From Nitrospirota bacterium (GTDB taxonomy: Bacteria; Nitrospirota; Thermodesulfovibrionia; Thermodesulfovibrionales; UBA9159): 37,341 nucleotides of DNA. The notes under the pieces were generated by a model. It was not told the origin of the DNA. It did not search any database and saw nothing but the letters and a program-made list of their open reading frames with translations. A program made the position numbers and the translations under genes. Positions within the stretch are counted from its first letter, which is position 1; every line of letters starts with the position of its first letter. The stretch is taken from contig JAJYIF010000032.1 of assembly GCA_021790195.1 (NCBI GenBank), positions 1 to 37,341 of the forward strand. The letters run 5' to 3'. Below, in pieces: positions 388 through 3,260 of the stretch.

Positions 388-3033
388 CTATTGTGCGCTT
401 CCTGGCTCAGAATTCTTCTTGAATGCCCCCTCGTCTTCATCGGCGTCATAAACTTCATCAAAAAGACCCGGGGCTTGTATGGCTTCTTCTGACTCAGCGT
501 AAAGTTCATTAAATCGAGGCAGATTTTCGTGATATCTTCTTAAAATAAACTCCTTATCTCTTGTGTAGCCACTTATAATATCTGAAACAATTGATTTGCC
601 AAAAAAGGGATTTATTGGCGTTTTGTTTTGAGCTCGTTCCAGGTCCTCCTGCTCCTTAAGATATTTCAAGAAGAGATCGACTCGCTCAAATCTCACAAGA
701 GTTCGTTGGTACTTATCTTCATCTCGGCCGGTTAAGTTGTCGACCTTTTTCATAAAGAGAGCCAATTCATCGCGCAGTGCTCCGTCATTCAAAGGGGTAT
801 CCTGCAAAATCAAATCCAGATAACAGAATTTGTTTACAAGATATTTTAAGTAGTAGTCACCTGCACCCGTAATCATGACGTGCGTGACATCCTGAAGAGA
901 CTCCTGCGATTTCGTATTTACCTCAATCAGCCTCCATCTAACTAATCTTTCTGCGGTTCTTATTACATCGTCAAGATTATCAAAGCTATTTTCGAACTCA
1001 TACAATACTTTGTTCCATTCGATAAACCCGCGTCCCATTGGGGAGTATTCGCTATTATGTAGCCTAAGAAGTTCGAGGAGTCTGAGAGCTGTGAAGTGGC
1101 TGCTGTTCCTTTCAGTTCCGCAATCAAAAACATTCATGACAGGATTGTCGATTGTCTCCTTGTAATACATTCTATCCTTCAGCATAACCGATTTAACGAA
1201 TTCGTGAAACGCGACCTGATAGTCTTCCTCCCTTTGAAATATTCGCAACATTTTGTCAACATCAGTCGCTCCAGAAACCAGGAAAGTATTGAACATATCG
1301 AGCGCCAATCTCATGTTTCCGTAACAGATGGCCTCTACAAAATATGCGATCCATTTACTTTTAACAAAAATACTTGATTGCAAAATTGTCAAGAAATCCA
1401 CAATTGCTTTCTTATCTAACGTAATTCCACTCCTCAGAATTAACTTTATTTCGTCGTCCGAGCGGACTAAGACTCTTGTGGCGTAATTGAGTCTATATTC
1501 TAGGAGACGTCGAAACCGCGGCGAAGCAATGTGGAATTTTCTGCTAGTGTAGGCGTTCAATATTTTTTGAGTGCTGGCAGTGTGATAGGATTCCTCGCGC
1601 ATGGAAAGCACCGTTAGAGAATTCACGTCTCGTGTTAGTTTCTGTGCTAAGAGGAAAAGAACTTCTTGGAACCTAGGAGACAGCTGATCTACGTTATCAA
1701 TAAAAATAAATATTGCACGTCCCCTTTCTCGACAGTCATTCAACAATCGCGTGACGTAATCGACTATATCATCTTTCCATTCCTCAAGATATGGGGATAT
1801 TCTCTTCTCATATTCATTCTGATCAAGATTCTCAGATTTGAAATAGGACTCGTAGAGGAGTTCTAGCTTCCTCTTATAGATTCTCTTTAGGGTCTTTCTC
1901 GTTTCCTTTATTGTCTCCGAATACCTATTTCTTATTTCCTCCAAAAGAGAACTGTAGATTCTCTCTTCCAACTGGTGTGGTTCCGTAGGAGGGCCTAGCA
2001 AGCTAATATAGAACCATACGGCATTTCTTTCCAAAATATCCTTCCCGGTTAGTCTAATATAGCGCTTTATAAAGGTAGTCTTTCCAGACCCAATACCCCC
2101 GAGTAATAAATAAAGCTGGCCGATATTTCTTTCAACCGCAGATTTCATCTCCGTATCAAAGCTTCCCGAATCCCTTATTCCAGTAAAGACCTGTTCGGTT
2201 CCTTGTTTTCTCAGGAAAAGGGGGATATAATCCTTTACAACATTGTCGAGATCAAGTGTCGCCGACTGCACGGATCGTGAATGGACATAGCATGACTCTA
2301 GAATTTCCAGTTCAGCCTTATCAGCGATATCCAAGAAGAATGCATCTATAACTGGATGGAGCTGGGCATGCAAGCGGTTTCTCTCTAGAGGAAGGTTGGC
2401 ATTATATAGTTTGTCTAATACTCTGTATTGCCCCCTTTTTGAATAGCTAACTATTGCAAACTGATCTTCCAAAGAACCCTTGTTTAGCGCGTCATAGGAC
2501 AATAAATTCCAAAATTCAAGAAAGTTATTCTTTATATCATTCGGCGAATAGAAAATGACTGAGTATCCCTCTCTCCATGATCCCTCGGGCTGAAAACTTT
2601 TAAAAATGATCCAGGAGAATCCATTAGACGCAATAGCATACCTTATGGTCAGATCGTCTACACAGTATTGGCGCACCTGATCGATTGCCTCTTTCACTTC
2701 CTTTGATGTCTGAACAGTTCCGGATAACTTCAATCGCCTTCTTCCCGAAGCCTCGGGCAGAAGGAAGGCGGTTCCCTCTCTCTTCGCTTCTACCGCAATA
2801 TACGGTCTATTGCCCAACCGCAATTGATAATCCGTGTAGCCTGCCTTATAACCTCGAGTGTGGTCTTCACGACTGAGCAAAAACTCAGGCCACATCAACA
2901 CCTCTTTAAGAATCCTATCCACTAATTTTACTCTAGTGTCAGTTTCGCTGGCTTGCCCTCGATTTTTGCAGAATTCAGTGAACTCAGAGCAGATGCTATC
3001 AAACCTTTGTAATGCCTCGTCGGGATCACTCAT
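388..3033 (-). CDS. PD-(D/E)xK-type nuclease fused to P-loop NTPase, probable defence protein
   Basis: 881 residues. The N-terminal ~130 residues resemble the nuclease domain of type I restriction R subunits: D68 in a TDY motif, then E82-x-K84 in VEAK, then a QVRQY segment (Q119, Q122). A P-loop NTPase follows, with Walker A GGIGSGKTT at 312-320, Walker B IFIFIDNVDQ at 441-450 and an arginine at 479 in LSMREESY. The remaining ~400 residues are mostly helical and not recognised; I see no clear TPR or WD repeats. The frame extends upstream to 3210, but the ATG at 3033 is preferred: it has GGAGAG in front and a good promoter at 3098-3126 that lies inside the longer version. Nuclease plus NTPase on one chain is typical of anti-phage proteins. 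That role is inference, and no named defence system was recognised. Confidence 0.8.
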   Translation of the reverse strand: MSDPDEALQRFDSICSEFTEFCKNRGQASETDTRVKLVDRILKEVLMWPEFLLSREDHTRGYKAGYTDYQLRLGNRPYIAVEAKREGTAFLLPEASGRRRLKLSGTVQTSKEVKEAIDQVRQYCVDDLTIRYAIASNGFSWIIFKSFQPEGSWREGYSVIFYSPNDIKNNFLEFWNLLSYDALNKGSLEDQFAIVSYSKRGQYRVLDKLYNANLPLERNRLHAQLHPVIDAFFLDIADKAELEILESCYVHSRSVQSATLDLDNVVKDYIPLFLRKQGTEQVFTGIRDSGSFDTEMKSAVERNIGQLYLLLGGIGSGKTTFIKRYIRLTGKDILERNAVWFYISLLGPPTEPHQLEERIYSSLLEEIRNRYSETIKETRKTLKRIYKRKLELLYESYFKSENLDQNEYEKRISPYLEEWKDDIVDYVTRLLNDCRERGRAIFIFIDNVDQLSPRFQEVLFLLAQKLTRDVNSLTVLSMREESYHTASTQKILNAYTSRKFHIASPRFRRLLEYRLNYATRVLVRSDDEIKLILRSGITLDKKAIVDFLTILQSSIFVKSKWIAYFVEAICYGNMRLALDMFNTFLVSGATDVDKMLRIFQREEDYQVAFHEFVKSVMLKDRMYYKETIDNPVMNVFDCGTERNSSHFTALRLLELLRLHNSEYSPMGRGFIEWNKVLYEFENSFDNLDDVIRTAERLVRWRLIEVNTKSQESLQDVTHVMITGAGDYYLKYLVNKFCYLDLILQDTPLNDGALRDELALFMKKVDNLTGRDEDKYQRTLVRFERVDLFLKYLKEQEDLERAQNKTPINPFFGKSIVSDIISGYTRDKEFILRRYHENLPRFNELYAESEEAIQAPGLFDEVYDADEDEGAFKKNSEPGSAQ

Positions 3034-3097
3034 GGTTTTCTCTCCAATGTTGCTTTTGTTTGATATTTGCCCACGGTGCGCGAAAAATATTTTGTTA

Positions 3098-3126: not shown

Positions 3127-3260
3127 TGAGTGAAAGTGAAGGGAAGTTCCCCAATTATTTCTCAGGCGCTGGAGCGTAACATGCTCAGGGCGGCGTGGAG
3201 TCATGGGCATGGGGCAAGTCTCGCTTTTTTTCAGACTATTTAGACTGGTGACATTTCCTG

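Follow-up and report, generated by a model that had tools for sequence, protein, structure and literature searches.

Avs STAND nucleases such as Avs3 carry an N-terminal effector of the PD-(D/E)xK type, and typical KAP NTPases have transmembrane helices inserted in their P-loop domain. ATPases of the ORC/Cdc6 type recur in biological conflict systems, also together with nuclease domains (PMC10853773), and BrxC is such an ATPase followed by a winged helix (PMC12839542). According to the article text of PMC9122126, the gpA-gpQ locus, which holds old and tin in P2, is a hotspot of validated anti-phage genes; eight systems were newly cloned from it, of which three were protective, and non-defence genes (partition, toxin) are found there as well. 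The article text of PMC13092281 gives 42 E. coli systems validated by DefensePredictor, and of the 31 with known or unassigned domains 13 had PD-(D/E)xK and 7 P-loop NTPase domains.

Here we analyzed a gene in a 37,341-nucleotide stretch of a Nitrospirota genome (the window, meaning this whole stretch). By computation, its product is an HsdR-type nuclease fused to an ORC/Cdc6-STAND ATPase with intact signatures, and the gene moves alone. We regard it as probably a horizontally moving single-gene, ATP-gated defence nuclease which would act against invading genetic elements, most likely phages.

The gene and the domains of its protein

The gene is a complete open reading frame of 881 codons for amino acids on the minus strand (Table 1), and the ATG at 3033 is immediately preceded by a Shine-Dalgarno-like box. 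An alternative longer frame opens at 3210, whereas the alignment to an 80% identical homologue in another genome of the phylum (G402) begins at 3033; the start methionine of this homologue is aligned with the 3033 ATG and a purine-rich run lies close 5′ of it. The profile phrog_14719 matched the window protein with E 2.8e-98 (residues 7-758 of 881 on profile positions 7-757 of 833), so the frame does not exist by chance. The same profile matched all 33 members scanned, and the protein is thus a member of a widespread family that corresponds to this computed PHROG cluster without a function name. The AlphaFold2 model, built from a 33-sequence alignment, had a mean pLDDT of 80.6 and pTM of 0.66, and no transmembrane stretch was found by hydropathy (top 19-residue Kyte-Doolittle mean 1.09).

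Table 1. Coordinates of the features in the window, with the evidence for each
Feature	Position	Strand	Evidence
Complete gene, 881-aa nuclease-NTPase	388..3033	-	stop codon 388-390; full-length homologues
GGAGAG Shine-Dalgarno-like box before ATG	3040..3045	-	sequence; compare GGGAGG in G402 homologue
HsdR-N-like PD-(D/E)xK nuclease domain, residues 26-165	2539..2958	-	Pfam HSDR_N in homologues; 3h1t profile match; invariant residues
Predicted catalytic D68	2830..2832	-	kept 54/54
Predicted catalytic E82-A83-K84	2782..2790	-	E and K kept 54/54
Q119xxxY123, QxxxY-type motif	2665..2679	-	E at 119 in second clade; Y invariant
P-loop NTPase core of ORC/Cdc6-STAND type, residues 291-500	1534..2163	-	VIA-align fold matches; AAA_16 7.4e-7, KAP 1.1e-4
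Walker A G312GIGSGKT319	2077..2100	-	glycines and lysine kept 55/55
Walker B I443FIDNVD449	1687..1707	-	DNxD kept 56/56
R479, end of strand 473-479; candidate sensor-1 arginine or arginine finger	1597..1599	-	kept 51/56; strand from model; role inferred
G572-N-M-R575, sensor-2-like motif	1309..1320	-	R575 55/55; position 573 is N or D; putative role, compare ORC/Cdc6
Helical ATPase lid, residues 501-635	1129..1533	-	model; within ORC matches
Winged-helix domain, residues 636-735	829..1128	-	separate model pLDDT 88; weak fold matches, Z <=6.4
C-terminal helical region, residues 736-838	520..828	-	S1 or cold-shock-like domains follow or replace region in some homologues
Acidic low-confidence tail, residues 839-881	391..519	-	pLDDT <50

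Homologues were collected from plasmids, viral contigs and genomes of the phylum; they are 17-31% identical to the window protein and most are full length, and the residue counts take in only the sequences covering the region concerned (54-56). An earlier note, made from the window alone, had read the protein as an HsdR-N-like PD-(D/E)xK domain joined to a P-loop NTPase, and this was borne out: all four nuclease residues that it named (D68, E82, K84, Q119) are present together with both Walker motifs. The complete signature of the nuclease in the window protein is E30, D68, E82-A-K84 and Q119xxxY123, and E30, D68, E82, K84 and Y123 were kept in 54/54 sequences that cover the N terminus, so that the loss of nuclease residues among homologues, which the note had named as evidence against itself, was not observed. 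Position 119 divides the family into two clades, one with Q (36 sequences, including the window protein) and one with E (18 sequences); the naming of Q119 as a nuclease residue therefore holds for the window's clade and does not extend to the second. Against Pfam HSDR_N the window chain alone scored 17.8 bits, below the cut-off of 25.1, while the domain was detected in 16/33 homologues (best 2.4e-11) and the profile of the N-terminal domain matched the solved HsdR 3h1t with E 6e-7 and the motifs in register. Judged by these sequence comparisons, the N-terminal domain is a PD-(D/E)xK nuclease of HsdR-N type with its catalytic residues intact, and nuclease activity is predicted for it.

The homology of this domain to HsdR brings in the reading that the gene codes for an HsdR subunit of type I restriction, either orphaned or in decay, which we hold to be very improbable. 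The motor is of the ORC/STAND type and not an SF2 helicase (Pfam SWI2_SNF2/ResIII gave no match in the window protein), the genome, which is 96% complete, has no match to HsdS (PF01420) and no second HSDR_N domain, and relatives of the gene are under strong purifying selection (copies in P2 prophages have dN/dS of about 0.03, with synonymous sites near saturation). The earlier statement that this is not a standard type I system was thus correct; the N6_Mtase (N6-methyltransferase-like) proteins of the genome lie on other contigs only.

Pfam matches of the ATPase part of the window chain alone were weak (AAA_16 7.4e-7, ATPase_2 2.7e-6, KAP 1.1e-4). The KAP match (PF07693, 22.0 bits) is above the cut-off of 20, yet it lacks specificity because the scores of AAA_16 and ATPase_2 exceed it, and an assignment to KAP was rejected on this ground. 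The inserted transmembrane helices of typical KAP members are absent as well. Lamassu (LmuA) and MADS (mad8) were also dropped, as their matches (1.3e-4 and 1.7e-5) are confined to the ATPase and their partner genes are absent in the window. A PDB sequence search with the single window chain gave nothing useful. The model of the ATPase matched a chain of the Drosophila ORC-Cdc6 complex best (VIA-align Z 15.3, rmsd 3.6, 253 residues), followed by BrxC (Z 13.1), TnsC (12.9), CED-4 (12.9), RdrA (12.2) and Avs3 (12.2), the last being the only Avs entry among the fold matches listed. These matches cover approximately residues 220-704, with some reaching 735, so the C-terminal half, which the earlier note had called unknown, includes the ATPase lid and the winged helix; by the structure models it is largely interpretable as lid, winged helix and helical end. 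Region 592-838 modelled alone (pLDDT 88) found nearly exclusively winged-helix regulators as its best matches, at weak scores (Z <=6.4), and the winged helix as a separate query gave weak and generic matches only. The GxxGxGK of Walker A (55/55), the DNxD of Walker B (56/56), R575 (55/55) and R479 (51/56) are conserved. On the models, the ATPase belongs to the ORC/Cdc6-STAND clade by its Walker A and B motifs, lid and winged helix, the winged helix being weakly matched.

The median pairwise identity within the Q clade falls from 31% in the nuclease to 21% in the ATPase and 17% in the winged helix and C terminus. Between the window protein and its closest relative, on the contrary, the lid (90%) and the winged helix (86%) are better kept than the nuclease (74%), which is suggestive of a sensor that is common to close relatives and changed in distant ones. 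An S1 RNA-binding domain is present at the C terminus of 10/33 scanned members, which are apparently the E119-clade copies (L040-L062), many of them in P2-like prophages, and this domain may point to an RNA trigger in these copies. A member on an Acinetobacter baumannii plasmid (L018:1827-4757) has about 100 extra C-terminal residues that resemble cold-shock domains by eye. In a genome of the window's own order (G134, L071:313-3075) a protein of 920 aa has part of the ATPase and the winged-helix region in common with the family (E 5e-31); it contains no nuclease, and its C terminus is of another kind, EAL-like by eye, which suggests an ATPase core recombined with other domains.

Genomic setting and distribution of the family

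The neighbours of the gene in the window, as read from translations, are housekeeping genes (scpA, rplI, dnaB and others), and no credible partner gene lies between 3034 and 3775. The earlier note had spoken of an accessory context. This does not hold for the window itself; it is supported by the low GC content of the gene (41.8%, compared with some 53% for the operon scpA-rplI-dnaB beside it) and by mobile homologues elsewhere. At the scpA loci of three relatives from the same taxonomic family (L092-L094) other genes lie upstream of scpA, and no homologue was found anywhere in all six relatives of that family. The G402 genome, which is outside the window's order, has its 80% identical copy within a stretch of about 6 kb with 33-35% GC, adjoining sequence of 51-54% GC; for the same pair of genomes ScpA is 67% and DnaB 61% identical. 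DNA similarity between the two loci is limited to 431-3033, which takes in the gene from its ATG almost to the stop codon. This pattern points to horizontal transfer of the gene alone, and as the synonymous sites of the pair are saturated, the exchange between window and G402 was not recent. The AT-rich island of G402 also has three further frames (240, 454 and 160 aa; L101:226-2768), and the one of 454 aa gave weak squalene-hopene-cyclase-like matches only. Positions 1-98 of the window are a dispersed repeat, 99-100% identical on four other contigs and situated at the very start of three, so the contig probably broke there.

It is also conceivable that an ORC/Cdc6-type ATPase with a winged helix belongs to a housekeeping DNA-repair or replication ATPase-nuclease. 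The distribution is patchy, as homologues occur in 2/230 genomes of the class and 5/296 of the phylum (the window's own genome counted in each) and on plasmids and prophages, and no housekeeping family covers the chain, which the earlier note had named as the match that would speak against it; we give this reading hardly any credence. Stop codons or frame breaks interrupt the copies at G151:C27:298910-299779 and G222:C67:325-2612, which indicates that the gene is decaying in some genomes.

Homologues were found on 30 plasmid records and on 43 viral or prophage contigs of IMG/VR. IMG/VR is biased towards prophages by construction, so that finding these 43 loci in prophages says little by itself; the searches of plasmids and of E. 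coli do not share this bias. A phage collection searched with four queries gave no match, hence the homologues are seen in prophages and plasmids and not in the sequenced phage records of that collection. A single-sequence scan of the genome contigs found no relatives. The gene stands solo in 41/53 loci, that is, with no same-strand frame of at least 90 aa within 80 bp.

Several plasmid homologues adjoin integrases or transposases, and together with the resemblance of the ATPase to TnsC this would agree with a gene that serves its carrying element in integration, replication or segregation (compare the TnsA nuclease and TnsC ATPase) and not defence. Such service is improbable in our estimate: the gene is carried by unrelated elements (prophages of P2-like and Rac-like type, IncF and rhizobial plasmids, chromosomes), there is no recurring transposase partner beyond ordinary insertion sequences, and the loci of G402 and the window have only the gene in common.

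A survey of gene neighbourhoods for a defence setting, as proposed in the earlier note, did find homologues next to defence genes and at a hotspot of anti-phage systems known from the literature. About 17 loci, with some redundancy among them (L042 and L043 are near-copies, L015 and L057 look like the same strain), adjoin gpA-like and/or gpQ-like genes of P2-like prophages, with both flanks visible in 10, and this spot is occupied by both the Q119 and the E119 clade. Defence neighbours elsewhere are individual examples, not set against a background rate: in L021 the homologue has a complete type I HsdR and YgjP as neighbours, in L016 a Tmn protein, in L012 an nSTAND3 protein, in L010 a type II methyltransferase and endonuclease, in L038 PDC-S59 and in L022 an Mrr nuclease. 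A neighbouring frame in L003 that looked SIR2-like by eye was dropped, as it matches no Pfam or PADLOC model. A frame of about 160 aa lies directly upstream of the nuclease-NTPase only in L022:7429-7914, L023:7450-7947 and L035:7445-7924; the two tested had no Pfam match, NCBIfam gave one weak DarG antitoxin match (E 0.005), and a regulator or antitoxin-like partner is possible.

Three divergent versions of the family occur in E. coli, in P2-like, Rac-like and lambdoid prophages, which makes a direct test in laboratory strains simple. The E-clade member is present in 109/5,426 genomes, for example with a replication endonuclease on one side and a KAP NTPase on the other, and the Rac-like and lambdoid members in 8/5,426 and 7/5,426 genomes respectively (one context read for each). 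At one E. coli P2 hotspot (L064:10741-12585) the homologue is followed immediately, on its own strand, by the 614-aa KAP NTPase, which matches the PADLOC candidate PDC-S49 (7e-28).

Proposed function

For a role in defence we infer a mechanism of four steps, drawn by analogy with the ATPases of Avs, BREX and RADAR, in which the winged helix and the C terminus would recognise the trigger, ATP would drive oligomerisation and DNA would be the substrate. At rest the ATPase, probably bound to ADP, would keep the nuclease inactive. The winged helix and the variable C terminus (S1 or cold-shock-like in relatives) would then detect the invader by one of its features, in the simplest case the nucleic acid, or else by a phage protein. 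ATP binding would lead to oligomerisation via the AAA+ module, and the clustered nuclease domains could cut DNA, either of the invader or of the whole cell, the latter being abortive infection. The earlier note had suggested a sensor-activated nuclease against phage or plasmids; this stays a proposal, and of the two targets phages are the more probable.

A modification-dependent (type IV) restriction enzyme would use the same parts in another way, with the winged helix and C terminus reading a modified base and the ATPase driving cleavage as in McrBC. One member was labelled 'Predicted type IV restriction endonuclease' by its submitter, and an ATPase with a PD-(D/E)xK domain but no methyltransferase or specificity partner suits such an enzyme. 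No modified-base reader was recognised in the Pfam scans of members, however, and PADLOC matches to methyl-directed restriction were weak and few (2/33, best 2.9e-4), which leaves this reading unlikely, if the least so among the alternatives to a sensor-activated defence nuclease.

In a wider proposal, which we offer tentatively and at slightly less than even confidence, the family would be an unnamed and widespread group of immune receptors, each encoded by a single gene. In these an HsdR-type nuclease would be gated directly by an ORC/Cdc6-like ATPase that senses DNA or RNA, exchangeable C-terminal S1 or cold-shock-like domains would set the trigger, and prophages and plasmids would move the gene. 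Should this hold, PADLOC, Pfam and NCBIfam have all overlooked, as a unit, a defence system that occurs in about 2% of complete E. coli genomes, on Klebsiella and rhizobial plasmids and in distant phyla. The family would also offer a compact example of a nuclease gated by an ORC-type ATPase in the same chain, and may help to ask how replication-initiator-like ATPases turned into immune switches.

Comparison with known systems

No PADLOC, Pfam or NCBIfam model covers the whole chain. Literature searches, which took in the article texts of PMC9122126 and PMC13092281, found neither a description of the family nor an assay of protection, nuclease or ATPase activity for one of its members; going by the article text of PMC13092281, a family member could be among the systems validated there by DefensePredictor.

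The systems of the gpA-gpQ locus, including old and tin of P2, occupy the same prophage locus as homologues of the gene; Old is an ATPase with a Toprim nuclease in the article text of PMC9122126, and no sequence relation to the present family was seen. The window protein is like HsdR (3h1t) in its N-terminal nuclease domain and differs from it in having neither the SF2 helicase motor nor an HsdS partner. The likeness to Avs3 lies in the order of a nuclease-type effector and then a STAND-clade NTPase, but the Avs3 entry has 2,028 residues, more than twice the length of the window protein, which moreover has an HsdR-type nuclease and a retained sensor-2-like arginine. PADLOC gave no Avs match and a TPR-like array of sensor repeats is not evident in the model, while the fold comparison is compatible with membership of Avs or with its opposite. 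BrxC of BREX and RdrA of RADAR have the same ORC/Cdc6-STAND fold; these two and SspC are, however, subunits of multi-gene systems, whereas the window protein unites nuclease and ATPase in one solo gene.
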